Source of the DNA: Bacteroides stercoris ATCC 43183
Lineage (GTDB): Bacteria > Bacteroidota > Bacteroidia > Bacteroidales > Bacteroidaceae
Assembly (NCBI RefSeq): GCF_025147325.1
Contig: NZ_CP102262.1
Location: forward strand, 806,001-870,000
Direction of reading: 5' to 3'
DNA length: 64,000 nucleotides
Shown here: piece after piece, positions 45,989 through 59,285 of the stretch
How the letters are laid out: each line of letters starts with the position of its first letter
How positions within the stretch are numbered: the stretch's first letter is position 1
Program-made: the position numbers and the translations under genes
Notes under the pieces: model-generated
Seen by the model: the letters and a program-made list of their open reading frames with translations, nothing else
Databases searched by the model: none
What the model was told of the DNA's origin: nothing

Positions 45989-45996
45989 TATCTTTG
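45989..45996 (+). promoter_or_regulatory. Upstream -7 box ahead of the ruvB leader element
   Basis: TATCTTTG ends 7 nt before the 75-nt element at 46004-46078. Equivalent boxes precede the other two copies. Confidence 0.5.
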
Positions 45997-46003
45997 TCCG
46001 GAA

Positions 46004-46078
46004 GCGGAGATAAGCGGCATTTCGATATAAAAAATGAATGGATTCATTTTATTCTGCTCTCGGTTTGCACTATCTTTG
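46004..46078 (+). repeat. Leader/promoter element, copy A (ruvB)
   Basis: 75 nt, starting GCGGAGATAAGC and ending CTCTCGGTTTGCACTATC then TTTG. It aligns without gaps to copy B (59195-59269, minus strand) at 56 of 75 positions. The last 8 nt are the ruvB -7 box. Confidence 0.7.
46071..46078 (+). promoter_or_regulatory. -7 box for ruvB
   Basis: TATCTTTG, 22 nt before the ruvB ATG. It is the right end of element copy A. Confidence 0.6.
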
Positions 46079-46100
46079 TCGTTGTATAGATTGAATTTTA

Positions 46101-47132
46101 ATGGAACAAGAAGATTTTAACATACGCGAGCATCAGCTCACCAGCAAGGAGCGTGACTTCGAGAACGCTCTCCGCCCTTTGAACTTCGAGGATTTCAGCG
46201 GACAGGATAAGGTGGTTGATAATTTGCGCATTTTCGTGAAGGCTGCCCGTCTCAGGGGCGAGGCCCTGGATCATGTGTTGCTTCACGGTCCTCCCGGATT
46301 GGGAAAGACCACACTTTCCAACATTATAGCCAATGAATTGGGAGTAGGTTTCAAGATTACTTCCGGTCCGGTGCTCGACAAGCCGGGCGACCTGGCAGGC
46401 GTACTCACCAGCCTGGAGCCGAACGATGTGCTTTTCATCGACGAGATACATCGGCTGAGTCCCGTAGTGGAAGAGTATCTGTATTCGGCAATGGAAGACT
46501 ACCGCATCGACATCATGATAGACAAAGGCCCGTCGGCGCGAAGCATACAGATTGATTTGAATCCGTTTACGCTGGTGGGGGCCACCACCCGCAGCGGTTT
46601 GCTGACGGCTCCGCTACGTGCCCGTTTCGGCATCAATCTCCATCTGGAGTATTATGACGATGATGTGCTGAGCGGTATTATCCGCCGTTCGGCAAGCATA
46701 CTGGACGTACCCTGCTCCACAAGAGCCGCTTCGGAAATCGCAAGCCGCAGCCGCGGTACGCCGCGTATCGCCAATGCCTTGCTGCGTCGCGTGAGGGACT
46801 TTGCACAGGTGAAAGGTTCGGGCAGCATCGATACGGAAATCGCCAATTTCGCACTCGAGGCGCTTAACATTGACAAGTACGGACTGGATGAGATAGACAA
46901 TAAGATACTTTGTACGATTATCGATAAGTTCAAGGGCGGTCCGGTGGGACTTACAACCATCGCTACGGCCTTGGGAGAAGATGCGGGAACCATCGAAGAA
47001 GTTTATGAACCGTTCCTGATAAAGGAAGGCTTCCTGAAACGCACTCCCCGCGGTCGTGAAGTAACGGAACTGGCCTATAAACATTTGGGGCGGAGCCTCT
47101 ACAATAGCCAGAAGACGTTATTTAATGATTGA
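46101..47132 (+). CDS. ruvB: Holliday junction helicase RuvB
   Basis: A 343-residue AAA+ motor for branch migration with RuvA and RuvC. Walker A is [20 protein letters not shown] (about residues 62-81) and Walker B is [12 protein letters not shown]. Sensor and arginine-finger region are [18 protein letters not shown]. The C-terminal winged helix ends [14 protein letters not shown]. ruvA and ruvC are not adjacent. The flippase gene follows 52 nt downstream. Confidence 0.97.
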
Positions 47133-47184
47133 CGCTTATTGATAAGCGACCGGTTAGAGAGAGTATAATAAAACACTGAATAAC

Positions 47185-48630
47185 GTGGCTGGATTGAAAT
47201 CATTGGCAAAAGAAACTGCCATTTACGGGTTGAGCAGTATTGTGGGGCGTTTCCTCAACTATCTGTTAGTGCCCGTATACACCATGGCCTTGTCTGCACA
47301 GTCGGGGGGCTATGGCGTTGTGACTAATATCTATGCGTGGGTGGCACTGTTGCTGGTGCTGCTGACGTGCGGCATGGAAACGGGCTTTTTCCGCTTTGCC
47401 AATAAAGGAGAAGACGACCCGATGCGGGTGTATTCCACAACATTGCTCAGCGTAGGCATCGGTGCGCTGACATTCCTTGCGCTGGGACTGCTGTTTCTTC
47501 AACCGGTTGCCGACTGGCTGGAATACGGAGAGCATCCCTGGTACGTGGGAATGATGATGATTGTAGTGGCGATGGATGCCATTCAAAGCATTCCTTTCGC
47601 TTATTTGCGCTATAAGAAACGGCCCGTCAAGTTTGCAGCGCTCAAACTGCTGTTCATCTTCCTGAACATAGCCTTGAACCTGATTTATTATGTCTGGATG
47701 AAGGGCGATGATGTGGCGTATGCCTTCCTCTTCAATCTTGTGTGCACTTCTACCATCATGCTGTGCATGATACCCGAATTGCGCGGTTTCGCTTATGTAC
47801 TGGACAGGAAACTGCTGAAGCGGATGCTTGCTTATAGCCTGCCGTTGCTGGTGTTGGGCATTGCGGGCATCCTGAATCAGGTGGCGGACAAGATTATCTT
47901 TCCCTTTGTCTATCCCGACCAGGCGGAAGCTACCGTACAACTCGGCATCTATGGAGCCGCCAGCAAGATTGCCATGGTGATGGCGATGCTGACACAGGCT
48001 TTCCGTTACGCCTACGAGCCTTTTGTATTCGGCAAGAGCCGCGATAAGGACAACAAGCAGGTGTATGCGCAGGCCATGAAGTTCTTTATCATCTTTACAC
48101 TGGTGGCTTTTCTGGCAGTGATGTTCTATCTGGATATTCTCCGCTACATCATCGGCCGCGACTATTGGCCGGGGTTGCGTGTTGTGCCCATTGTAATGGC
48201 TGCGGAAATCTTCATGGGAATTTATTTCAATCTCTCTTTCTGGTACAAGCTGATTGACGAAACGCGTTGGGGAGCTTATTTCTCACTGATAGGCTGCACG
48301 ATTCTGGTGGTGATGAATATCTTTTTAATTCCGAAGTTCGGGTATATGGCTTGCGCATGGGCCGGATTTACGGGTTACGGCGTTGCGATGCTGCTCTCTT
48401 ATTTTGTCGGTCAGAAGAAATACCCGATTCAGTACGATTTAAAGTCGATCGGGTGCTATGTGCTGTTGGCTGCGGTGCTTTATGTGGCTGCGGAATGTGT
48501 ACCTATTGAAAACATCTGTCTGCGTATGACGTTCCGTACGCTGTTGTTATGCCTGTTTATAGCCTATATTATAAAGCGCGATTTGCCGCTTAGTCAAATA
48601 CCTGTTATCAATCGTTTTATCCGAAAATAG
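47185..48630 (+). CDS. Wzx-like polysaccharide flippase (MOP family)
   Basis: A 481-residue membrane protein with about 12-14 helices and the N-terminal pattern of lipid-linked oligosaccharide flippases (TAIYGLSSIVGRFLNYLLVP, then SGGYGVVTNIYAW). The C-terminal half has the PolySacc_synt_C-like run (PIVMAAEIFMGIYFNLSFWY). It should export an undecaprenyl-linked glycan, but no glycosyltransferases are nearby. The start is GTG. The DUF389 gene follows 10 nt downstream. Confidence 0.85.
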   Translation: MAGLKSLAKETAIYGLSSIVGRFLNYLLVPVYTMALSAQSGGYGVVTNIYAWVALLLVLLTCGMETGFFRFANKGEDDPMRVYSTTLLSVGIGALTFLALGLLFLQPVADWLEYGEHPWYVGMMMIVVAMDAIQSIPFAYLRYKKRPVKFAALKLLFIFLNIALNLIYYVWMKGDDVAYAFLFNLVCTSTIMLCMIPELRGFAYVLDRKLLKRMLAYSLPLLVLGIAGILNQVADKIIFPFVYPDQAEATVQLGIYGAASKIAMVMAMLTQAFRYAYEPFVFGKSRDKDNKQVYAQAMKFFIIFTLVAFLAVMFYLDILRYIIGRDYWPGLRVVPIVMAAEIFMGIYFNLSFWYKLIDETRWGAYFSLIGCTILVVMNIFLIPKFGYMACAWAGFTGYGVAMLLSYFVGQKKYPIQYDLKSIGCYVLLAAVLYVAAECVPIENICLRMTFRTLLLCLFIAYIIKRDLPLSQIPVINRFIRK

Positions 48631-48640
48631 AATTATTTTT

Positions 48641-50011
48641 ATGGAACAGCCTGTCAATCCCAACCGGAATGTATTTGCCGTCAAGAACTTCCTGAAAGAG
48701 TATCTCGATTTGCGCAAAGATAAAGACAATGAACTTGCCACTGTAGACTCCATCCGTAAGGGTGTCGAGTTTAAAGGAGCCAATTTATGGATTCTGATAT
48801 TTGCCATCTTTATGGCTTCACTCGGTCTGAATGTCAATTCTACCGCTGTAATTATCGGTGCGATGCTTATTTCGCCGTTGATGGGACCTATCATGGGAGT
48901 GGGGCTTTCAGTGGGTCTGAACGATTTCGAGCTGATGAAGCGCTCGTTGAAAAGTTTCCTGATAACTACGCTGTTCAGTGTCACCACGGCTACCGTCTTC
49001 TTCCTGGTGAGCCCGGTTGCCGAGGGGCAGTCGGAGTTGCTGGCGCGTACCTCACCGACGATTTATGACGTATTCATCGCACTGATGGGCGGTCTTGCGG
49101 GAGTAGTGGCACTCTCCACGAAGGAGAAAGGCAATGTGATTCCGGGTGTCGCCATTGCCACGGCATTGATGCCGCCGCTGTGTACGGCAGGTTATGGACT
49201 GGCAACGGGAAACCTGATTTATTTCCTCGGTGCATTCTACCTTTATTTCATTAACTCCGTATTCATCAGTCTGGCTACTTTTATCGGCGTACGGGTAATG
49301 CACTTCCAGCGCAAGGAGTTTGTGGATAAGAACCGTGAAAAGAAGGTGCGGAAGTATATCGTGCTGATAGCTGTCCTTACGATGTGTCCGGCGGTGTATC
49401 TCACAGTGGGAATAATTCAGGATACCTTCTTTGAAAGTGCGGCCAACCGCTTTGTAAACGAGCAGCTTGCCTTTGAGAATACGCAGGTATTGGATAAGAA
49501 AATCCACCATGAGGGCAAGCACCATGAGATACGGGTGGTCCTGATAGGTCAGGAAGTGCCGGAAGCCTCTATTGCCATCGCCCGCAGTAAAATGAAAGAT
49601 TATAAACTGGACAATACCAAGCTGGTTGTGCTCCAGGGAATGAATAACGAGTCATTGGATATGTCGTCTATCCGCGCCATGGTTATGGAAGATTTCTACA
49701 AGAACAGCGAACAGCGTCTGGTGGAGCAGAAGCAGCAGATTTCTTCTTTGGAAAAGAACTTGGAACAGTACCGTAAATACGATGAATTGGGCAAAAAGAT
49801 TATCCCTGAGCTGAAGGTGCTTTATCCCTCCGTCAAGTCGGTTTCCATTTCGCACGCACTTGAGCTGACGGTCGATTCGGTACGGATAGATACCGTTACG
49901 CTTGCCGTCCTGAAGTTCGGCAAGCATCCGGATGCCCGTGAAAGGGAGAAAATAACCGAATGGCTGAGAGCGCGTACGGGTTCCGAAAAGCTGAGGCTGA
50001 TTGCGGAGTGA
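48641..50011 (+). CDS. DUF389 membrane protein
   Basis: A 456-residue protein. Residues about 45-250 carry the DUF389 membrane region (FAIFMASLGLNVNSTAVIIG, then AMLISPLMGPIMGVGLSVGL and GVAIATALMPPLCTAGYGLA). The C-terminal 200 residues are soluble, with a coiled coil (EQKQQISSLEKNLEQYRKY) and a mixed alpha/beta tail. Function is unknown. It is co-directional with the flippase and the S46 peptidase gene. Confidence 0.88.
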   Translation: MEQPVNPNRNVFAVKNFLKEYLDLRKDKDNELATVDSIRKGVEFKGANLWILIFAIFMASLGLNVNSTAVIIGAMLISPLMGPIMGVGLSVGLNDFELMKRSLKSFLITTLFSVTTATVFFLVSPVAEGQSELLARTSPTIYDVFIALMGGLAGVVALSTKEKGNVIPGVAIATALMPPLCTAGYGLATGNLIYFLGAFYLYFINSVFISLATFIGVRVMHFQRKEFVDKNREKKVRKYIVLIAVLTMCPAVYLTVGIIQDTFFESAANRFVNEQLAFENTQVLDKKIHHEGKHHEIRVVLIGQEVPEASIAIARSKMKDYKLDNTKLVVLQGMNNESLDMSSIRAMVMEDFYKNSEQRLVEQKQQISSLEKNLEQYRKYDELGKKIIPELKVLYPSVKSVSISHALELTVDSVRIDTVTLAVLKFGKHPDAREREKITEWLRARTGSEKLRLIAE

Positions 50012-50112
50012 TGTCCGGATGCGGTGAAAGAGAAGCGTCCGGCCGCACAGGCTGTCGGTGTGGGAATACAAAACGGGCAGGCAAACTTATATAAAGTTAA
50101 GTAGAGAACGAT

Positions 50113-52254
50113 ATGGTTTTGAGATTTGTAGCAGTGGTTGTTTGCTGCCTTTCTGCGTGGGTGGTGCAGGCGGATGAGGGCATGTGGATGCTGGGTAATC
50201 TGAATAAACAGACGCGCCGGGCAATGAAAGAGCTCGGTTTGCAAATGCCGGCAGACAAGCTATACAGTGCCAGACATCCCTCATTGAAAGATGCCGTAGT
50301 GAGTTTCGGCGGTTTCTGTTCGGGGGTGGTCGTGTCGGAAGACGGACTGGTATTTACGAATCACCATTGCGGTTTCAGCAGCGTCCAGCAGCATTCTTCC
50401 GTGGAGCATGACTATCTGAAAGACGGCTTTGTGGCACGTAACCGCAGCGAGGAACTGCCGAATCCGGAGCTTTATGTCCGCTTTCTGCTGCGGACGGAGA
50501 ATGTAACGAAACGGGTGCTTGGTGCGGTAAAGCCGGAGATGACCGATCCGGAGCGTTCCGGTGCGGTGGATTCGGTGATGTTTGCCATCAGTGAGGAAGT
50601 GGCGCGTAAGGACTCTACTTTGGTGGGAATTGTAGATGCGTACTATGGCGGCAATGAGTTTTGGCTGTCTGTTTACCGCGACTATAACGATGTCCGGCTG
50701 GTATTTGCACCGCCTTCCTCGGTAGGCAAGTTCGGTTGGGATACGGACAATTGGGTGTGGCCGCGTCATACGGGCGATTTCTGCGTATTTCGCATCTATG
50801 CCGGTAAGAACAACCGCCCGGCGGATTATTCGCCGGAAAACGTCCCTTATCGTCCCGAATACGTAGCGCCGATTTCTCTGGACGGGTATAAAGAGGGTTC
50901 TTTCTGCATGACATTGGGCTATCCGGGCAGCACGGAGCGTTATCTCTCTTCGTTTGGCATCGAAGAGATGATGAACAACGGCAATCAGGCACAAATAGAT
51001 GTCCGGGGCATCAAGCAGGCTATCTGGAAGCGCGAAATGGACAGGCGGGACAGTATCCGCATAAAGTATGCTTCCAAATACGATGAAAGCTCCAATTACT
51101 GGAAGAACAGCATCGGGGTGAACCGGGCCATCCGGAAATTGCATGTCTTGGAAAAGAAGCGTGCCATGGAGCGGGAGCTTCGCCGCTGGATACAACAGAC
51201 ACCCGGAGAACGTGAGAAGCTGTTGCGGCTGTTTCCCGATTTGGAACTGGACTATAAAAATACCCGTGAAGCCAACCGTGCTTTGGCCTATTTTGCCGAA
51301 TCTTTCCTGAACGGTCCCGAACTGATACAATTGGCGTTGTCCATTTTGAATTTTGATTTTGAAGGGGAACGGAAAACGGTCGAGGCCAATCTGAAGGCGA
51401 TTGTAGAAAAGTACGCCAATCTGGATTTGGAAATCGACAAGGAAGTCTTTACCGCCATGGTGAAAGAATATCGTTCCAAGGTCGATTCTACCTATTTACC
51501 GGAGTTTTACGGTACGATTGCCACCCGGTACGGCGGTAACGACAAGGCCTATGCGGATAGTTTGTATGCCGCTTCGGAACTGACTACCCCTCGCGGATTA
51601 AAACGTTTTCTGGAGCGGGACACTACCTATAACATTTATGACGACCCTGCCATAAACCTGGGCATAGACCTGATTGGCAAGATGTTTGAAATCAATATGC
51701 AGACGAGAGAGTCCGCCATGAATATCGCCCGTAATGAGCGCTTGCTGAATGCTGCCGTACGCAGGATGTATTCATCGCGTAATTTCTATCCGGACGCCAA
51801 TTCCACCATGCGCTTGAGCTTCGGTACGGTATGCGGATACACCCCATTTGACGGTGCTGAATACGATTATTATACCACGACCAAAGGTATTCTTGAAAAG
51901 GTAAAGACCCATGCAGGCGATGTGGATTTTGAGGTGCAGCCGGAACTTCTTTCTTTGTTCTCCAACCGCGACTTTGGCAGATATGCCGGTGAAAAGGGAG
52001 AAATGAACGTTTGCTTTATCTCCAATAACGATATAACTGGCGGCAATTCGGGAAGCGCCATGTTCAATGCCAGAGGCGAACTTCTGGGACTGGCTTTTGA
52101 CGGCAATTGGGAAGCGATGAGCAGCGATATACTCTATGAACCGAAGATGCAGCGCTGCATCGGGGTCGATGTGCGCTACATCCTGTTCATGATAGAGAAG
52201 TACGGCAAAGCCGGAAATTTGATACGGGAGCTGAAAATCGTTTCCGGAAAATAG
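50113..52254 (+). CDS. S46-family dipeptidyl-peptidase, DPP7-like
   Basis: A 713-residue exported serine exopeptidase (signal peptide ending VVQADEG). The catalytic His is His85 in FTNHHCG and the nucleophile is Ser646 in GGNSGSA. An Asp in the middle block (YRDYNDVRLVFAPP) completes the triad by family alignment. The residue 18 after the nucleophile is Gly664 (FDGNWEAMS). In Porphyromonas enzymes Gly there is typical of DPP7, which prefers hydrophobic or aliphatic P1 residues, while Arg marks Asp/Glu-specific DPP11. It releases dipeptides from oligopeptides in the periplasm. Confidence 0.93.
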   Translation: MVLRFVAVVVCCLSAWVVQADEGMWMLGNLNKQTRRAMKELGLQMPADKLYSARHPSLKDAVVSFGGFCSGVVVSEDGLVFTNHHCGFSSVQQHSSVEHDYLKDGFVARNRSEELPNPELYVRFLLRTENVTKRVLGAVKPEMTDPERSGAVDSVMFAISEEVARKDSTLVGIVDAYYGGNEFWLSVYRDYNDVRLVFAPPSSVGKFGWDTDNWVWPRHTGDFCVFRIYAGKNNRPADYSPENVPYRPEYVAPISLDGYKEGSFCMTLGYPGSTERYLSSFGIEEMMNNGNQAQIDVRGIKQAIWKREMDRRDSIRIKYASKYDESSNYWKNSIGVNRAIRKLHVLEKKRAMERELRRWIQQTPGEREKLLRLFPDLELDYKNTREANRALAYFAESFLNGPELIQLALSILNFDFEGERKTVEANLKAIVEKYANLDLEIDKEVFTAMVKEYRSKVDSTYLPEFYGTIATRYGGNDKAYADSLYAASELTTPRGLKRFLERDTTYNIYDDPAINLGIDLIGKMFEINMQTRESAMNIARNERLLNAAVRRMYSSRNFYPDANSTMRLSFGTVCGYTPFDGAEYDYYTTTKGILEKVKTHAGDVDFEVQPELLSLFSNRDFGRYAGEKGEMNVCFISNNDITGGNSGSAMFNARGELLGLAFDGNWEAMSSDILYEPKMQRCIGVDVRYILFMIEKYGKAGNLIRELKIVSGK

Positions 52255-52258
52255 CCGG

Positions 52259-53818
52259 TTATGCGATTCCCCTGATGCGGTCGTCGAAAGCGGACAATGC
52301 CGCTTTGGCCCCTTCACCCATAGCTATGACAATCTGTTTGTAGGGTACGTCGGACACGTCTCCGGCTGCATAAACACCCGGAAGCGTGGTGCGGCAGAAT
52401 GCGTCTGTCTTGATTTCACCGGTCGGTGTCGTTTCCAATGCGTCCCGGAAAGGTGCGCTGTTGGCTGCCAGGCCGATTTGTACGAAGATACCGTCCAAAG
52501 GATAGTCGCGCTCCTCGTTGGTGATGCGGTCTTTGATGCGGATACCGGTTACTTTCTCTCCGTCGCCCGTCACTCGGGTGGTTTGTGAAGAAGTGAATAT
52601 CTCCACGTTGGGAAGGCTTCCGGCTTTTTCCTGCAATACCTGGTCGGCTTTTAGCGTATCGGCAAATTCGAAGACGGTAACTTTCCTGCAGATTCCCGCC
52701 AGGTCGATGGCCGCTTCTATGCCGGAGTTCCCGCCGCCGATGACGGCTACATGCTTGCCTTGGTAGAAGGGGCCGTCACAATGCGGGCAGAAGGCTACAC
52801 CGCGTCCGAGGTATTCGGCTTCTCCCTCTACGTTCAGTTTACGCCAGCTTGCGCCTGTGGCAATGATTACCGCAGGGGCTGTAAACGTTTCTCCGCCACC
52901 GGAGAAAACCTTTTTCTCTTTGCCCTGAAGCTCTGCTCTTTCAATCTTCCGGTCTTCAAAAATCTCTATCGGGTAATGTTCTATGTGCGTCCTGAGTGCG
53001 TCGGCAAGCTGTGAACCTGTTGTCCGGGGTACGGAGATAAGGTTCTCGATGCCTACGGTTTCTTTTACCTGTCCGCCTATTCGTTCGGCAATAATGGCTA
53101 CGCGCAATCCTTTGCGGGCGGAATAAACGGCTGCCGAAGCCCCGGCAGGACCCCCGCCCAGGACCAGTACGTCGAACTCCCTTAAGATGGGTGCTGCATT
53201 CTCTTGCGGCAGGCTGCCGAAGGTATCTTCCAGTTTTTTCAGGAGTTCCCCTAAAGAACCGCGTCCCACATGAAGTTGCTTCCCATTGGCGTAAACGGAC
53301 GGTACGGCTTGTATTTTCAGCGCATCCGCTTCTTCCTGAAAGACGGCTCCGTCTATTGTGTCGTGGGTGATATGGGGATGCAGCAGTGCTACGGCATTGA
53401 GCGCCTGCACAATGTCCGGGCAGTTGGTACAGGCCAGCGACACATAGGTTTGCAGGTGGATTGGGCCTTGCAATGCCTTGATGCGGCGGCCGATACCCTC
53501 GTCCGGGAGATTTTTGCCCTTTCCATCGGCGTTTAGCACGGCAAGAAGCAGCGAACTGAATTCATGTCCGCCCGGAACGGCACGGAATTTTATTCCGGTT
53601 TCTTTCCCTTCTTTCAGGAGCGTAAACTCCAGTTTGGGCTCATCGGTTTCGGTCACCTGGCAGGACAGTTTGTCGGAACAGCTCGCTATGTCATTCAGAA
53701 AATCAATCATCTCACCGGCCTGTTCATGTTCCGGATTGCAGGTGATGTGAAAGGTATAGCGGGCTTCCAATGGTTGGAATATGCTCCGCACTTGGTCTAA
53801 TATAGTTGCTTCTAACAT
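52259..53818 (-). CDS. ahpF: Alkyl hydroperoxide reductase subunit F
   Basis: A 519-residue flavoprotein that moves electrons from NAD(P)H to AhpC. The N-terminal double thioredoxin-like domain carries CTNC (about residues 130-133). The FAD site is VLVLGGGPAGASAAVYSARK, the redox-active CPHC is near residues 341-344 (GVAFCPHCDGPFYQG), and the nucleotide site is VAVIGGGNSGIEAAIDLAG. It follows ahpC on the same strand with a hairpin between them (53853-53905). Confidence 0.96.
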   Translation of the reverse strand: MLEATILDQVRSIFQPLEARYTFHITCNPEHEQAGEMIDFLNDIASCSDKLSCQVTETDEPKLEFTLLKEGKETGIKFRAVPGGHEFSSLLLAVLNADGKGKNLPDEGIGRRIKALQGPIHLQTYVSLACTNCPDIVQALNAVALLHPHITHDTIDGAVFQEEADALKIQAVPSVYANGKQLHVGRGSLGELLKKLEDTFGSLPQENAAPILREFDVLVLGGGPAGASAAVYSARKGLRVAIIAERIGGQVKETVGIENLISVPRTTGSQLADALRTHIEHYPIEIFEDRKIERAELQGKEKKVFSGGGETFTAPAVIIATGASWRKLNVEGEAEYLGRGVAFCPHCDGPFYQGKHVAVIGGGNSGIEAAIDLAGICRKVTVFEFADTLKADQVLQEKAGSLPNVEIFTSSQTTRVTGDGEKVTGIRIKDRITNEERDYPLDGIFVQIGLAANSAPFRDALETTPTGEIKTDAFCRTTLPGVYAAGDVSDVPYKQIVIAMGEGAKAALSAFDDRIRGIA

Positions 53819-53852
53819 GATGATGCAGGTTTTTAAATGTTGGAGTATAAAA

Positions 53853-53905
53853 AAAGACTATCTCATTTCTTGTACTCTTGCAAGGAAGAAATGGAGATAG
53901 TCTTT
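53853..53905 (-). terminator. Hairpin between ahpC and ahpF
   Basis: On the minus strand AAAGACTATCTCCATTTCTT (53905-53886) pairs with AAGAAATGAGATAGTCTTT (53871-53853), with one bulged base, and is followed by T-rich sequence. It lies after the ahpC stop and before ahpF in the same direction, so it may be a partial terminator. Confidence 0.75.
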
Positions 53906-53936
53906 ACATAGTAATGTCTATCGTATGGGGGTACGA

Positions 53937-54503
53937 TTAAATCTTGCCGACTAAATCGATGCTCGGCTTCAACGTTGCACCGCCTTTCTTCCATTTGGCG
54001 GGACAGACTTCACCGTCGTGAGTGGCTACGAATTGCGCAGCTTCCACCTTACGGAGCAGTTCGTCCGCATTGCGTCCGATGTTGTTGTCCTGAATCTCGG
54101 CAATCTTGATTTTTCCTTCAGGATTTACAAGGAATGTACCGCGATAAGCCATACCTTCTTCTTCGATCATCACACCGAATGCACGGCTCAATGTTCCTGT
54201 CGGGTCTGCCAACATCGGGTATTTAATCTTGCGGATGCTTTCGGAAGCATCATGCCATGCTTTATGTACAAGGTGAGAGTCTGTACTTACGGAATAGACC
54301 TCTACGCCCATGGCTTGGAACTGGTCGTATTTTTCTGCAATATCCACCAGTTCGGTAGGACATACAAACGTAAAATCTGCCGGATAGAAGAAGAAAATGG
54401 CCCATTTGCCTTTTACATCTTCGTTAGTTACTGTTTTGAAACTTCCGTTTTGGAAGGCCTGAACTTTGAATTCAGGGAGTTGAGAGTTGATAATCGGTTC
54501 CAT
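53937..54503 (-). CDS. ahpC: Alkyl hydroperoxide reductase C (typical 2-Cys peroxiredoxin)
   Basis: A 188-residue peroxiredoxin reducing H2O2 and organic peroxides. The peroxidatic Cys48 lies in FTFVCPTEL and the resolving Cys167 in GEVCPAKW. The start ATG at 54503 (MEPIINSQLPEF) gives the normal length; a frame open to 54656 runs through the promoter region. Upstream lie the leader element copy C, a -33/-7 promoter and an OxyR-type array, so peroxide induction through OxyR is likely. Confidence 0.97.
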   Translation of the reverse strand: MEPIINSQLPEFKVQAFQNGSFKTVTNEDVKGKWAIFFFYPADFTFVCPTELVDIAEKYDQFQAMGVEVYSVSTDSHLVHKAWHDASESIRKIKYPMLADPTGTLSRAFGVMIEEEGMAYRGTFLVNPEGKIKIAEIQDNNIGRNADELLRKVEAAQFVATHDGEVCPAKWKKGGATLKPSIDLVGKI

Positions 54504-54544
54504 AATTATACTTTTTAAAAGGTTTGGTTTTTGTTTTACCGGTG

Positions 54545-54612
54545 CAAAGATTGTGCAGACCGAATGCAGAAGCAGGCTTGCCTGATTATGCCGAGGTGCA
54601 GCCGATCTTTGC
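54545..54612 (-). repeat. Leader/promoter element, copy C (ahpC)
   Basis: 68 nt on the minus strand, starting GCAAAGATCGGCTGCACCTC and ending GGTCTGCACAATCTTTG. The first 27 nt match copy B at 22 positions and the last 28 nt at about 19. The middle is about 7 nt shorter. Confidence 0.65.
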
Positions 54613-54624
54613 TTTTCCTGTTTG

Positions 54625-54657
54625 CAAAAATATAGCATTTTTCTCCGGTAGAACAAA
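54625..54657 (-). promoter_or_regulatory. -33/-7 promoter of ahpC
   Basis: Minus strand: TTTG (54657-54654), a 21-nt spacer, TATTTTTG (54632-54625). Transcription would start near 54618, about 115 nt before the ahpC ATG, with element copy C in the leader. The OxyR-type array at 54665-54700 lies directly upstream. Confidence 0.6.
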
Positions 54658-54664
54658 AAATCCG

Positions 54665-54700
54665 ATTGAAAGGTTTTATGGGCCGATAGACAAAATCTAT
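54665..54700. promoter_or_regulatory. OxyR-type operator array upstream of ahpC
   Basis: Plus-strand tetrads ATTG (54665), TTAT (54676), ATAG (54686) and CTAT (54697) are spaced 7, 6 and 7 nt. They match ATAG-N7-CTAT-N6-ATAG-N7-CTAT at 14 of 16 positions. The array overlaps the oxyR stop codon and lies about 46-82 nt upstream of the predicted ahpC start site. Confidence 0.6.
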
Positions 54701-55623
54701 ACGAGTACCTGAGTGGCTTTCAGGGAGAGCATTTCTTTGGGCACTGCCGCTGTTACCTCTTGGACGATTGTATTTAAAAGCGTGTTGCGGATAAAACTCC
54801 GGTTGGTCAGCATGATGATTTGCCGGGTAGGACAGGGGATGGCAAAAGGATGTACCAGTTCTTTCTGCGTGCCGTTCAGTTGCAGGACAGCCAGTTCGGG
54901 AATGAAAGTAATGCCCTTGCCGCTTTCTACCATGCGCATAAAGGTTTCCATGCTGCCCAGATGATAGGCCAACTGGCTGGCACGGGCTGCCTTCAGTTGG
55001 CAGAAACGCTCCAGCTGGTCGCGAAAACAATGCCCTTCATCCAGCAGCCAAAGCTGTTCTCCCGTCAAGTCCGAAGTCCGTATGACTTCATTGCTGAAAA
55101 GACGGTTTTCCCGCGCAATATACGTGTAGAACTGTTCGTAGAATAACGGTATTTGCCGGAATTCTTCCATTCCTGCCAGACCGGCTACGATTCCGGCATC
55201 TATGTCTCCCGTTTGCAGGGCTTTCTTGATGTCGTTCGTCTTCATCTCTACCACCCGGATATCAAGCTGCGGATATTTCTTCATCAATTGCGGAAAGAAG
55301 CGCGGCAGCAGATAGGGGGCTATGGTGGGAAGTATGCCCAGTTTGAAAATTCCGCTGAGCGAATGCTTTTCTTCTTCTATAATGTTTTTTATACGATGGG
55401 TCTGAACCAACACATTCCGGGCTTGTTCTATGATGTGAATGCCGATGGGAGTAGGGCACACAGGCTGCTGGCTGCGGTCGAAAATCTTTGTGTCCAACTC
55501 TTCTTCCAACTTTTGAATCATGGCGCTCAAGGTGGGTTGTGTGACCCGGCAATATTCAGCGGCTTTGGCGAAATGACGGAACTGATTGACAGCAAGTATG
55601 TATTCCAATTGTTGTAAAGTCAT
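54697..55623 (-). CDS. oxyR: Peroxide-sensing regulator OxyR (LysR family)
   Basis: A 308-residue LysR-type regulator. The winged helix covers residues 1-60 (MTLQQLEYILAVNQFRHFAK and AAEYCRVTQPTLSAMIQKLE). The redox switch of OxyR is present at the same numbers as in E. coli: Cys199 in EGHCFRDQ and Cys208 in ERFCQL. LGSMETFMRMVESGKGITFI is the family's helix before the second domain. It activates peroxide-defence genes. It lies between ahpC and dps, and arrays fitting its operator lie at both ends of the gene. The ATG at 55623 is used. Confidence 0.95.
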   Translation of the reverse strand: MTLQQLEYILAVNQFRHFAKAAEYCRVTQPTLSAMIQKLEEELDTKIFDRSQQPVCPTPIGIHIIEQARNVLVQTHRIKNIIEEEKHSLSGIFKLGILPTIAPYLLPRFFPQLMKKYPQLDIRVVEMKTNDIKKALQTGDIDAGIVAGLAGMEEFRQIPLFYEQFYTYIARENRLFSNEVIRTSDLTGEQLWLLDEGHCFRDQLERFCQLKAARASQLAYHLGSMETFMRMVESGKGITFIPELAVLQLNGTQKELVHPFAIPCPTRQIIMLTNRSFIRNTLLNTIVQEVTAAVPKEMLSLKATQVLV

Positions 55624-55649
55624 AGAAACAGGGCTTTTGAATGTTATAT

Positions 55650-55685
55650 ATAGAATCGTTCTATGCAAAGATAGAAATTATCTGT
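55650..55685. promoter_or_regulatory. OxyR-type operator array between oxyR and dps
   Basis: ATAG (55650), CTAT (55661), ATAG (55671) and CTGT (55682) are spaced 7, 6 and 7 nt and match the tetrad consensus at 15 of 16 positions. The array covers the oxyR -7 box and ends at the dps -33 box. That fits autoregulation of oxyR and activation of dps. Confidence 0.65.
55666..55673 (-). promoter_or_regulatory. -7 box for oxyR
   Basis: The minus strand reads TATCTTTG followed by C, about 43 nt upstream of the oxyR ATG and inside the operator array. Confidence 0.6.
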
Positions 55686-55716
55686 TTGACAAGCACTTAT
55701 TTGCCGCTTATCTTTG
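55685..55716 (+). promoter_or_regulatory. -33/-7 promoter of dps
   Basis: TTTG (55685-55688), a 20-nt spacer, TATCTTTG (55709-55716). Transcription starts near 55722, about 42 nt before the dps ATG. Confidence 0.7.
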
Positions 55717-55763
55717 CAACAGGAACAAAGAAAAATAGTATGAACTTTTAAAATAGAAAGATT

Positions 55764-56252
55764 ATGAAAACTTTAGATTACTTACATTTGAATGAAAAGA
55801 AAGTTGCTGACGTAGTATCGGCATTGCATCAGCTATTGGCAGACTTTCAGGTACATTATACCAATTTGCGCGGTTTCCATTGGGATATTAAAGGACACGG
55901 GTTCTTCGTGCTGCACGGCAAATTTGAAGATATGTACAACGATGCCGCAGAGAAAGTGGATGAAATCGCAGAACGTATCCTGATGTTGGGCGGTACACCC
56001 GAAAACAAATTCAGTGAATATCTCAAGGTTGCCAAAGTGAAGGAAATCTCCGGTATTACTTGTGGCGGTGAGGCTGTTGAGCATATCCTCGAAACTTACA
56101 GCTATCTTATCGGTGAAGAAAGAAAAGTGATAGAACTGGCCAATGAAGCCGGTGATGATGCAACGGCCGACTTAATGACCGGTTACCTGAAAGAGCAGGA
56201 AAAAATGGTTTGGATGCTCGTTGCTTTCAGTACCAAGAGCTGTACGAAATAG
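55764..56252 (+). CDS. dps: DNA-protection ferritin-like protein Dps
   Basis: A 162-residue mini-ferritin that oxidises and stores iron and protects DNA from peroxide. Ferroxidase ligands fall at His39, His51, Glu55, Asp66 and Glu70, the same spacing as in E. coli Dps (Glu for Asp at the third). The opening LHQLLADFQVHYTNLRGFHW is typical. It has its own promoter next to an OxyR-type array. Confidence 0.95.
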   Translation: MKTLDYLHLNEKKVADVVSALHQLLADFQVHYTNLRGFHWDIKGHGFFVLHGKFEDMYNDAAEKVDEIAERILMLGGTPENKFSEYLKVAKVKEISGITCGGEAVEHILETYSYLIGEERKVIELANEAGDDATADLMTGYLKEQEKMVWMLVAFSTKSCTK

Positions 56253-56272
56253 GAGATAAAAAGCAATAAGAT

Positions 56273-56315
56273 AATAGGGTGATAAAGTGATGATGCATTG
56301 CTTTGTCACCCTATT
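56273..56315. terminator. Terminator between dps and the EamA gene
   Basis: AATAGGGTGATAAAG (56273-56287) pairs with CTTTGTCACCCTATT (56301-56315) over 15 bp with one G-T pair. Flanking AGCAATA/TATTGCT can extend it. It separates the converging genes. Confidence 0.75.
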
Positions 56316-56352
56316 GCTTTGTTACACTGTTATTTATCACCTTGTCACTCCA

Positions 56353-57219
56353 TCATTTTTTTAGAATAATGACGGTTACGGCTGAAATGATGAGCAGGAT
56401 GCCCAGTGCTATGCTTCGGGTAAACGGCTCTCCGAAGATGGCAATGCCTACGCATACCGCCGTTACAGGTTCCATAGCTCCCAATACGGATGTCAGTGTG
56501 GAGCCTATGTTTTTGATGGCGCGTACCAGTGCAAGGTTGGATATTACGGTAGGTACTAACGCAAGCATCACCAGATTGCCCAATGTGGTGCGGTCCGGAA
56601 TGGCCTGTAACCCTATCCCGGAGATTTCCGTTCCGGTGAATAACAGGATACCGCCGAACAAAAAGACGTAAAACGTCATTTTAAGCCCTTTCATCTCGAG
56701 ATTTTTCAGTTGGCTTACCGTTACCAGGTAAAGGGCATATCCCAATGCAGAAAGCAAAACAATGAATATGCCGGACCAGGTGACGCTTCCCGTACCGTCT
56801 CCGCTGGACAGGAAAAATACGCCGGTTACTGCCAGTGCAATGGCCGCCATGCGCCACAAAGATTTCTTCTCGTGGAAGAATATCATCATGATAAGCGTAG
56901 TCAGCACCGGATACATGAAATGAAGGGTGGTGGCCACACCGCTCGACATGAACTGATACCCCCAAAAGAGGAATACTGCGGAACTGTCGTAAAGGCATGC
57001 CAGCAGCAGAAGCGGCAATATCTCCTTACGGCGTATGCGGAAAGACTGCTTGTCGAGCAGCAGTATGCCTGCCAGTGCCAGCATGGCGAAAAGAAAACGA
57101 TATAATAGAATAGACCAGAAACCCATTCCTTGCTGCATGGCCGGGATTGTAAATAGCGGAATCAATCCGAAGCTGGCAGAAGACAATAGTCCATATAAAA
57201 AACCGTTGACTTTGTTCAC
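56353..57219 (-). CDS. EamA/DMT-family transporter
   Basis: A 288-residue protein with ten predicted hydrophobic helices in two EamA repeats. The first starts LLSSASFGLIPLFTIPAM and the second WSGIFIVLLSALGYALYL. The late LGAMEPVTAVCVGIAIFGEP is the typical EamA ending. The substrate, a metabolite or amino acid, is unknown. The start is GTG at 57219, 9 nt after the helicase stop, so it is co-transcribed with the helicase. Confidence 0.9.
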   Translation of the reverse strand: MNKVNGFLYGLLSSASFGLIPLFTIPAMQQGMGFWSILLYRFLFAMLALAGILLLDKQSFRIRRKEILPLLLLACLYDSSAVFLFWGYQFMSSGVATTLHFMYPVLTTLIMMIFFHEKKSLWRMAAIALAVTGVFFLSSGDGTGSVTWSGIFIVLLSALGYALYLVTVSQLKNLEMKGLKMTFYVFLFGGILLFTGTEISGIGLQAIPDRTTLGNLVMLALVPTVISNLALVRAIKNIGSTLTSVLGAMEPVTAVCVGIAIFGEPFTRSIALGILLIISAVTVIILKK

Positions 57220-57228
57220 GTCGTTTGC

Positions 57229-59163
57229 TTATTTCTTTTTAGGTGTCCGTTTTGCCCAGCCTTCTTCGCTGAAGTCCGGTTCTGAATCTTTAAATTCGTT
57301 ATTGCCTTGAAAGAACTGTTTCCAATCGTCTTTTTTGCCGCGTGCCTTGGTATAACCGCGTTCTTCGCGACTGGGCTTGTTCTTTTTCTTGTCGGTAGCG
57401 GCATATTCGGTCTTATCACTGCGTTTGCCGGCAACCTCGCTGCGACGCTCATCCTTGTAGCTGCGTTTTTTGCCGTCAAATTCCTTTTTGCCGTAGTTGC
57501 CGCCTTCGTTCCTGCGTTTTCCTTTGGGAGCGTCTTTCCCTTCTTCTCCCGCAATCTCTACAGAAACCTTACGGCCGTTCCAGTTGGCCCGGTTTAAGGC
57601 TTTTATAACGTTGCCCGCTTCTTTGTCTTCCACTTCAAAGAAAGAGAACTTCTGCATCAGGTCGATACGGCCTAATTCAACACGCCCGCGGGTATTGTTG
57701 TTCAGGAGGCTGATCAGTTCGTTGGGGAAGAAGTTGTCCATTTTACCGAGATTGATAAACAGACGTTTAAAGCCCGGAGTTGCCTTACGGGCATTGCTGC
57801 CGCGTTCGCCGCTTTTGGCGCTGCGTTCGCTGCCGGTGGCAATTTCTATTTCCTCACGGTCGCGATAGTAGTCCAGGAAGCGGTTGAATTCGAGGGAAAC
57901 CATGCGTTTAATCAGGTCTTCCTTACTCAACCAGTCCAGCTTGCGGTAAATGTCGGACATGAAATCACGGATTTCATCCTCATTTACTTTTACTTTTTCG
58001 AGTTCGTCAATAACCTTCAGCAACTGCTTCTCGCAGATTTGCTTGCCGGTAGGCATTTCTCCCTGAATGAATTTCTTGCCGATGATGCGTTCGATTTCAC
58101 GCATTTTGCCTTTTTCGCGCAGGTTGATGATGGCGATGGATGTGCCTGTTTTTCCGGCACGTCCCGTACGTCCGCTGCGGTGTGTGTAGCTTTCCGTATC
58201 ATCGGGCAGGCCGTAGTTGATGACGTGGGTGAGGTCGTCAACGTCCAGACCGCGTGCGGCAACGTCGGTAGCCACCAGCAGTTGCAGGTTGCGTATGCGG
58301 AATTTCTGCATGACGGCATCGCGCTGCGCCTGGCTCAGTTCACCGTGTAAAGAGTCGGCATTGTAACCTTCCTGCATCAGTTTGTCGGCAATTTCCTGAG
58401 TTTCCTTGCGGGTACGGCAGAAGATGATGCCGTATATCTGCGGATAGTAATCTACGATGCGTTTCAGGGCGGCGTACTTATCTTTGGCATGAACGGTGAA
58501 CACCACGTGTTTCACGTTGCTGGTTCCTTCATTTCTGCGTCCGATGGTGATTTCCTTTGCATTGTGCAGGTATTTTTTGGAAATACGTGCGATTTCGGGA
58601 CTCATGGTCGCGGAGAACAGCAGTGTGTTACGCTCTTGGGGCACATCTGCGAGAATGGCATTAATGCTGTCCGTAAATCCCATGTTCAGCATTTCGTCCG
58701 CCTCGTCCATAACCACGTTCTGGATGGTGGAGAGTGAGACGGTCTTGCGTTCCATAAGGTCGAGCAGACGTCCGGGGGTAGCTACGATGATGTGTACCCC
58801 CCGCTTCAGGGCACGTATCTGGCTTTCGATGGACGAACCGCCGTACACGGGCAATACCCGCAGACCGTCGATGTACTTGGAGTAATCATTCAGGTCGCCC
58901 GCTATCTGTAAACAGAGTTCGCGGGTAGGGCAAAGAATAAGTGATTGGGGTATTCGGTTGTTAACGTTGATTTGCTGTATAAGCGGCAGACCGAACGCTG
59001 CGGTCTTTCCTGTTCCTGTTTGTGCCAGTGCTACTACATCATTATTTTCTCCCAAAAGGTAAGGGATTACTTCCTCTTGTACCGGCATGGGACACGCATA
59101 TCCCATTTCTTCAATGGCGCGGCGTATCTCCGGCGACACACCGAGCTCTTCAAATGTCTTCAT
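57229..59163 (-). CDS. DEAD-box RNA helicase (DeaD/CsdA-like)
   Basis: A 644-residue RNA helicase for ribosome assembly and RNA turnover. Motifs are ALAQTGTGKTAAF (I), VMDEADEMLNMGF (II), LFSATM (III) and YTHRSGRTGRAGKTG (VI). Residues about 460-545 form a DbpA-type RNA-binding domain. The C-terminal 90 residues are a lysine/arginine/glutamate-rich disordered tail. Element copy B and two -7 boxes precede it. Confidence 0.94.
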   Translation of the reverse strand: MKTFEELGVSPEIRRAIEEMGYACPMPVQEEVIPYLLGENNDVVALAQTGTGKTAAFGLPLIQQINVNNRIPQSLILCPTRELCLQIAGDLNDYSKYIDGLRVLPVYGGSSIESQIRALKRGVHIIVATPGRLLDLMERKTVSLSTIQNVVMDEADEMLNMGFTDSINAILADVPQERNTLLFSATMSPEIARISKKYLHNAKEITIGRRNEGTSNVKHVVFTVHAKDKYAALKRIVDYYPQIYGIIFCRTRKETQEIADKLMQEGYNADSLHGELSQAQRDAVMQKFRIRNLQLLVATDVAARGLDVDDLTHVINYGLPDDTESYTHRSGRTGRAGKTGTSIAIINLREKGKMREIERIIGKKFIQGEMPTGKQICEKQLLKVIDELEKVKVNEDEIRDFMSDIYRKLDWLSKEDLIKRMVSLEFNRFLDYYRDREEIEIATGSERSAKSGERGSNARKATPGFKRLFINLGKMDNFFPNELISLLNNNTRGRVELGRIDLMQKFSFFEVEDKEAGNVIKALNRANWNGRKVSVEIAGEEGKDAPKGKRRNEGGNYGKKEFDGKKRSYKDERRSEVAGKRSDKTEYAATDKKKNKPSREERGYTKARGKKDDWKQFFQGNNEFKDSEPDFSEEGWAKRTPKKK

Positions 59164-59194
59164 TAAATCTTTGTATATCTTTATATTTCAGGTG

Positions 59195-59269
59195 CAAAGA
59201 TAATGCAAGCCGGGAGCATAATAAAATAAACTTGTCTGTTTTTTATGCCGAGGTGCGGTTTATCTTCGC
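59195..59269 (-). repeat. Leader/promoter element, copy B (DEAD-box helicase)
   Basis: 75 nt on the minus strand, starting GCGAAGATAAACCGCACCTC and ending CGGCTTGCATTATCTTTG. Its first and last 9 nt are near-perfect inverted repeats (GCGAAGATA with TATCTTTGC). The -7 box of the helicase gene (59202-59195) is its right end, and another -7 box (59285-59278) lies 8 nt before its left end. Confidence 0.7.
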
Positions 59270-59277
59270 ATTTGGCG

Positions 59278-59285
59278 CAAAGATA
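59278..59285 (-). promoter_or_regulatory. Upstream -7 box ahead of element copy B
   Basis: The minus strand reads TATCTTTG followed by C, 8 nt before the element. Confidence 0.55.

Follow-up and report, generated by a model that had tools for sequence, protein, structure and literature searches.

What is the element that stands in the leaders of ruvB, of ahpC and of a DEAD-box RNA helicase gene in a 64,000-nucleotide stretch of Bacteroides stercoris ATCC 43183? This stretch, hereafter the window, comprises bases 806001–870000 of a 4,007,931-bp single-contig genome (G000, the genome under study; other genomes bear labels of the same kind). A search with RuvB agrees with the genus, the best named relative being Bacteroides finegoldii at 96%, although records very close to the window may be missing from that search. 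We are confident that the element is a mobile palindromic promoter cassette, non-coding, which inserts at -7 boxes and brings a substitute box with it. Its copies are dispersed, its sites occur both filled and empty, its palindrome is polar with a promoter-like end and covarying arms, and both gain and apparent loss are seen.

The places and strands of the three copies, re-read in the sequence, agree with the original prediction. Copy A (46004–46078, + strand) lies upstream of ruvB, an open reading frame (ORF) at 46101–47132 (+) with the Pfam domains RuvB_N, AAA_lid_4 and RuvB_C. Its right end is a -7 box, TATCTTTG (46071–46078, +), and an older -7 box, also TATCTTTG, stands before the copy at 45989–45996 (+), separated from it by a 7-nt spacer (45997–46003). 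Copy B (59195–59269, - strand) lies upstream of the DEAD-box helicase gene, an ORF at 57229–59163 (-) with the domains DEAD, Helicase_C and DbpA; its right-end -7 box is at 59195–59202 (-), and the older box TATCTTTG at 59278–59285 (-) is followed by an 8-nt spacer (59270–59277). Copy C (54545–54612, - strand) lies upstream of ahpC, an ORF at 53937–54503 (-) with the domain AhpC-TSA. Its right-end box is AATCTTTG (54545–54552, -), and the older box TATTTTTG (54625–54632, -) precedes a 12-nt spacer (54613–54624). The older box is found with no element behind it in G043 for copies A and C and in G018 for copy B. Re-alignment reproduced the earlier figures: A and B are both 75 nt and identical at 56 of 75 positions without gaps, C is 68 nt, and the further -7 boxes stand 7, 8 and 12 nt before the left ends of A, B and C. 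The next best ungapped placement of A in the window, on either strand, reaches 39 of 75. Each copy is an imperfect palindrome that folds as a long hairpin. Rfam release 15 gave no covariance-model match at copies A, B or C, even at E-values (E) up to 1. The sole Rfam family over its cut-off in the window is the small RNA FopS (RF04319; 20883–20949, -, 78.2 bits), which passes the family cut-off at nine places in the genome and falls short of it at others; we considered it as a paralogous family and rejected it, as it is another sequence.

The copies extend well beyond the window. Besides itself (E 8.7e-34), copy B retrieved four more matches over its full length in a BLAST search of the genome, with E from 6.1e-19 to 4.4e-11. 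Two others covered part of it at E below 1e-4, of which one corresponds to a full copy at recF, and 17 were weaker. An eight-copy covariance model, for which the best 150 of 1304 candidates in the genome were scored, finds eight strong copies in 4.0 Mb, at 74–101 bits and E from 2.1e-14 to 3.3e-21, these eight being its own training set; copies A, B and C score 83.5, 90.3 and 74.4 bits. The genes behind the eight encode RuvB, the DEAD-box helicase, AhpC, a PASTA-domain protein, TsaE, a PurL-like FGAR amidotransferase, an asparaginase and a RecF-like protein. Three of the eight fall inside 13.3 kb, for which p is about 0.002 if copies are placed at random. The next-ranked matches among the best 150 of 1304 score 33–25 bits (E up to 0.05) and include the miaA leader, a recR-like leader and one palindrome that is unrelated by eye. 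The original prediction had named chance similarity plus promoter conservation as its refutation, and this did not occur. All that speaks for chance is the -7 box at the end of the copies, since no promoter motif is commoner. However, further copies exist, they match over their full length and not just in the -7 region, a reversed control pattern (see below) gives 0–2 matches per genome, and sites are found both filled and empty. The probability of this explanation is negligible, and the resemblance of the copies is beyond chance or promoter conservation. Separately, a 53-nt inverted repeat, GCAAAGATAAGC...TATCTTTGC (55665–55717, -), precedes the LysR-type (OxyR-like) regulator gene that adjoins ahpC; with the element model it scores 19.2 bits (E 2.2) and is perhaps a shortened copy.

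We then aligned 62 copies and compared the two ends of the element. Over its full 68–85 nt, typically about 76, it forms an imperfect inverted repeat, with a spacer of 1–12 nt on its left, and the consensus ends are GAnAAGATAGG on the left and CACTATCTTTGC on the right. The promoter recognized by sigma-ABfr is described, in the excerpts of PMC7366714, as TANNTTTG at -7 with TTTG near -33. The strict motif TANNTTTG is present at the right end of 55 of the 62 copies, predicted promoters by this description, and at the left end, on the other strand, in one. An ORF (at least 60 codons, or open through to the end of the stretch) starts no more than 140 nt from the right end in 60 of 62 copies; the left-end equivalent is 25. 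In 45 of 62 copies the 25 nt that precede the left end contain the motif TANNTTT, compared with 216 of 2480 random windows. By these counts the palindrome is polar, with a promoter-like right end and a degraded complement of it on the left.

Pairing of the ends had been proposed earlier, and it is supported: covariation is present, and the ahpC copies of G000, G018 and G091 show joint changes in both arms. The proposal was nevertheless too modest, since the 30 consensus pairs of the eight-row alignment run through the whole element and not the ends alone. Over 17 named pairs, 87.7% of the cells are paired, compared with 82.3% in shuffles and 32–53% when the arms are slid, and two-sided changes number 55 versus 16.8 in shuffles. 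The mean folding z-score is -3.17 for the gene strand, with 51 of 62 copies below -2, and -3.63 for the other strand. In a strand test, G-U cells number 103 and A-C cells 56, with 14 and 12 distinct states, which favours neither strand clearly. In nine copies with an unusual right box, every left arm pairs with at least five of the box bases, as judged by eye. The arm and the box change jointly in the combinations TAACTTTG with AAGTTA, TTTTTTTG with AAAAAA and TATATTTG with ATATA. Against such co-change, the pair that separates AAGATA from AAAATA or AACATA is unpaired in 14 of 62 copies.

Evidence of mobility comes from sites that are filled in one genome and empty in another. There are 13 such pairs at 11 genes; twelve differ by a single unit of 73–84 bp, and aroK differs by two (166 bp). 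The unit follows the TTTG of the -7 box, or TTT in the case of pepP, and behind its own box the flank towards the gene resumes. At miaA, filled in G018 and empty in G043, the flanks match at 25 of 25 positions upstream and 19 of 20 downstream. At pepP, G085 has an extra copy that is absent from its close relative G069, with flanks matching 25/25 and 20/20; this copy differs in sequence from its neighbour and is no duplicate of it. All 13 pairs place the unit 3' of a fixed motif. The absence of a duplication is less clear, with these two cleanest pairs lying in older copies and two others having a matching spacer (see below). No older copy was seen at the empty sites of deaD, purL, asn, tsaE, typA, ruvB, ahpC, aroK and g115. 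The target box can differ from the element's own box, being TACCTTTG at typA and TATTTTTG at ahpC. In 11 pairs the spacer matches the right flank at 0–5 positions. Spacers also recur at separate places in G018, CAACAAAA three times and CTCTAAAA twice. Since the spacer is mostly unlike the right flank, insertion does not as a rule duplicate a target of fixed length, and the spacer seems to travel partly with the unit. Duplication of the target site as a rule had first been suggested by 1160495 and tsaE; it is contradicted by typA, ruvB, asn, miaA and pepP.

Copies are also present in many other genomes, to a greater extent than the original prediction stated. The eight-copy model was run on 31 genomes (E up to 0.01, 150 candidates scored per genome, where one copy can count on both strands); several genomes other than that under study are incomplete, for example G008 (74%) and G013 (89%). 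Matches were found in 11 of the 31: at least 15 in each of G000, G006, G007, G008, G011, G013 and G018, six in G026, which belongs to another family, and one to three in G001, G002 and G016. A second model, R2, was built from the 62 copies and is sequence-only (E up to 1e-4, 40 candidates scored per genome, zero meaning not detected). It detects related copies in 80 of 119 genomes of the same genus, very unevenly spread; the counts are lower bounds, because several genomes reached about 40 candidates scored. A right-end pattern with up to three mismatches, whose reversal served as the control above, was counted in 19 genomes. It is frequent in G085 (45), G007 (45), G069 (44), G091 (39) and G011 (23), less so in G018 (17), G074 (15), G000 (13), G052 (11) and G043 (10), and occurs 0–5 times in nine genomes of the genus (G012, G033, G038, G003, G017, G056, G093, G119 and G123). 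The subtypes of the element are lineage-specific and have a common core. Among the ruvB leaders of 80 named Bacteroidales, read by eye, three carry the element: those of Prevotella bivia, of Xylanibacter muris and of a Prevotella metagenome-assembled genome (MAG), the last in tandem. One more has perhaps part of an element and none was seen in 76, although a diverged subtype could escape the eye. Two further kinds of palindrome were noted: a different one, GAGAGCAATAGC...GCTATTGCCGA, occurs twice in the ruvB leader of a Bacteroidales MAG (L216), and three related palindromes about 90 nt apart, with arms that pair and right ends without a -7 box, lie in L165 (G006:C61:28781-29627). One right-end pattern had no exact match in viral contigs, and plasmids had no match to the element. 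Ten unannotated records labelled 'Bacteriophage sp.' from human faecal samples, including L439 (MT837568.1), hold a copy at 80–92% identity; these contigs may be bacterial fragments or true phage copies.

To follow single sites across lineages, we compared the leaders of the window's genes, judging by eye whether each is filled or empty. The deaD gene was found at the cut-off in 114 of 119 genomes, and 30 leaders were read: four are filled, by a single subtype in both G000 and G043 and by separate subtypes in G007 and in G011, and in 26 no element was seen. The identical nucleotide has thus been targeted in the separate lineages G000/G043, G007 and G011 with different subtypes. For ruvB, found in 112 of 119 genomes, the 30 leaders read include G000 and G018 as filled (G018 with a second unit) and G107 as degenerate, with none seen in 27; outside these 30, the ruvB locus of G011 is filled. 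The ahpC leader has the element in G018 and G091 as well as in G000, and none in G043. In a tree of deaD and ruvB from 21 genomes, G000 joins G043 (support 0.996) and G018 lies outside. Since the ruvB and ahpC copies occur in G000 and G018, this grouping is best read as loss in G043, and the two copies seem to have been lost there, leaving leaders like empty sites; separate gains in G000 and G018 are a possible alternative. In a different leader, that of a second DEAD-box gene (L054 at G000 2799315, L329 in G043 and L423 in G018), the right half is element-like and the left half is another, nested palindrome; in L329 a complete unit follows the right end of this leader.

These surveys bear on the other alternative offered by the original prediction, a conserved structured leader or regulatory RNA that does not move. 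The hairpin with its covariation, and the paired changes between the ahpC copies of the three genomes, are what such an RNA would show. In contrast, the element is absent from most relatives at the same genes (26 of 30 deaD and 27 of 30 ruvB leaders), its subtypes differ by lineage, an extra copy can be present in just one of two close relatives, and the genes served have no common function and the element no Rfam match. As a general explanation an immobile leader is therefore very improbable and was set aside, although at ahpC the copy may have persisted because of its hairpin. The mobile promoter cassette, offered alongside it, is supported by copies in related genomes at the same position relative to the gene and by the empty sites.

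How would such a cassette work? The unit sits immediately 3' of a promoter's existing -7 box (TANNTTTG), oriented towards the gene. Its right arm ends in a -7 box, which after insertion stands at the former distance from the 5' untranslated region, and the old box comes to lie about 83 nt further upstream. Transcription would begin behind the right-end box with the old start kept, so that the gene receiving the element, judged from its sequence, probably keeps its normal transcription start. The old box may also fire and give a second transcript starting near the left arm, in line with the two tandem start sites of the original prediction, which would follow from the two -7 boxes. A comparison is offered by ten places resembling FopS, in nine of which the Rfam model begins 4 nt behind TTTG, with the model start taken as the 5' end. 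Insertion may be close to neutral for expression. The left arm, complementary to the -7 box, could be a guide or half of a recombination site. Every right end would be a new target, hence the tandem arrays, in which copies are spaced 75–90 nt apart.

Several observations weigh against a homing promoter cassette. First, TTTG lies near the expected distance (17–23 nt from the box) in just 28 of the 62 copies, at 19–20 nt upstream of the right-end box; TTTA stands at 17–23 nt in 15, neither is present in 18 and the box is unrecognised in one. Second, the RNAalifold consensus fold of the 62-row MAFFT alignment was empty, which is why R2 contains no pairs, and over the 17 named pairs neither the pairs with two-sided change (6 versus 5.8 shuffled) nor the pair types (21 versus 23.1) rise above shuffles. 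Third, the miaA and pepP insertions, the cleanest without duplication, each lie in an older copy's right end (at miaA that copy is decayed); copy-to-copy exchange could therefore explain those two. Some pairs also have weakly matching flanks: g115 at 15/25 and 8/20, aroK at 15/25 upstream, miaA of G091/G096 at 16/25 upstream and deaD of G043 at 7/20 downstream, where there is an indel. The spacer equals the right flank at 8 of 8 positions at tsaE and 7 of 8 at deaD of G043, as a target duplication would give. Finally, no mover was found in the families searched, Y1_Tnp and Y2_Tnp.

Which activity could move the element? One candidate is transposition of a single-stranded hairpin by a HUH-type or other transposase, which the left arm would guide by pairing with the target box; we hold this tentatively. 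In IS200/IS605 elements a guide pairs with the target motif, and the element here appears alike in that it inserts 3' of a short fixed motif, has no consistent duplication and carries an end complementary to its target and to its own right end. The co-change of arm and box in the nine unusual-box copies, paired by eye, points the same way. Unlike IS200/IS605, however, the unit has no transposase gene, and Y1_Tnp (PF01797) is missing in G000. Of seven further genomes rich in the element that were tested, three lack it as well (G007, G008 and G013, the last two being incomplete). It is present in the rich genomes G006, G011, G018 and G026 and, among nine poor ones, in G005 and G012, so that 6 of 17 genomes have it. 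Scanning nine Y1 loci gave two loose pattern matches, neither of them element-like by eye, and Y2_Tnp (PF04986) occurs in 1 of 21 genomes (G130) and not in G000.

The same insertion behaviour might instead be produced by a tyrosine recombinase of the CTnDOT/IntDOT kind, through conservative recombination at a TANNTTTGC-like core, with the spacer being the coupling sequence from the previous site. This is a version of the promoter cassette explanation with the mover named, and we consider it doubtful. The IntDOT core is GTANNTTTGC, which resembles the target TANNTTTG, and the coupling sequence resembles the spacer. Insertion at a fixed box, and variable 7–8 nt spacers of which some are common to several loci (CAACAAAA and CTCTAAAA in G018) and some equal the new flank, are consistent with such an enzyme. 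On the other hand, CTnDOT is a large conjugative element, the unit has no recombinase gene, and an 83-bp double-stranded circle is unlikely.

Spread that needs no dedicated enzyme, with template switching or recombination over short homologies linking the many TATCTTTG boxes and the element ends, is unlikely in our estimate. Direct box repeats flank each unit, the insertions at miaA and pepP have an end in common with an older copy, and the apparent loss in G043 leaves a single box, as slippage between repeats would. But the deaD, purL, typA, tsaE and asn targets share little beyond the box, and at typA even the box differs. Copy number also differs strongly between related genomes, which suggests lineage-specific activity. 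A more speculative proposal, to which we give limited credence, is a new mobile class that parasitises initiation: a hairpin of about 83 nt with a left-arm guide and an unrecognised enzyme, perhaps entering the open promoter as a single strand directly 3' of the box, and leaving the gene a replacement promoter with the start kept. As the arm and the box change together, lineages could then shift to new target boxes.

To place the promoter cassette among known systems, we compared it with small repeats described elsewhere; for those cited, the comparison is with excerpts of the papers. Insertion of the Correia repeat-enclosed element (CREE) of Neisseria at a box-like target favours promoter formation, and CREE is bordered by TA or by 3–5 bp duplications resembling the -10 hexamer (PMC9330008). 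As described there, it is likewise small, non-coding, dispersed and promoter-forming at a box-like target, whereas the element here lies 3' of a complete -7 box, supplies the box anew and lacks a consistent duplication. The BrickBuilt miniature inverted-repeat transposable elements (MITEs) of Porphyromonas gingivalis are intergenic and dispersed, with stem-loops and promoter activity; they are hundreds of nt long, have 23-nt internal repeats and ends common to IS5-family ISPg elements, and act as bidirectional promoters 49–591 nt from genes (PMC4596501). By that account both are intergenic dispersed elements of Bacteroidales with stem-loop and promoter features, but the present one is about 76 nt and one-directional. 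Promoter motif 2 (PM2) of B. thetaiotaomicron is described as a near-palindromic promoter motif of 75 coding genes, with boxes at -10 and -30, that also stands before GibS (PMC7366714); compared by this description and not by letters, it is unlikely to be identical with the element. Several FopS leaders share an upstream GTTATAA-like box, and 0 of 10 show the element.

Other classes fit less well. Like MITEs, the element is a short non-coding inverted repeat (68–85 nt), but a fixed-length target duplication is lacking, the spacer matching at 8/8 or 7/8 in 2 of 13 pairs. REP sequences are also dispersed palindromes outside genes; to our knowledge, they are not promoters. Unlike the REP/RAYT system, G000 has no Y1_Tnp (RAYT), three Y1-bearing rich genomes have no element at the examined Y1 loci, and no repeats flank the nine Y1 loci, so this origin is not supported. 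IS91/ISCR is likewise not supported by the distribution of the Y2 transposase given above. Integron attC sites have the ends GTTRRRY/RYYYAAC, which the consensus ends of the 62 copies do not fit. The element resembles a promoter-carrying MITE, as CREE and BrickBuilt do, but it is set apart from these by its size, its polarity, its exact target and the want of a regular duplication. We found no description of it in the openly licensed literature, which is weak evidence of absence because most subscription papers fall outside that scope.

In summary, promoters of core genes (ruvB, recF, miaA, tsaE, topB, purL and DEAD-box helicases) have been rebuilt repeatedly in several Bacteroides by one kind of tiny element, and the ruvB promoter likewise in some Prevotella and Xylanibacter. 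By its sequence, the element probably avoids harm by replacing the very signal that it disrupts. It accounts for leaders with recurrent hairpins and with two -7 boxes, and raises the question of which activity takes a promoter box as its target. Such a mover, if found, could allow promoter-directed insertion in a genus with few tools.

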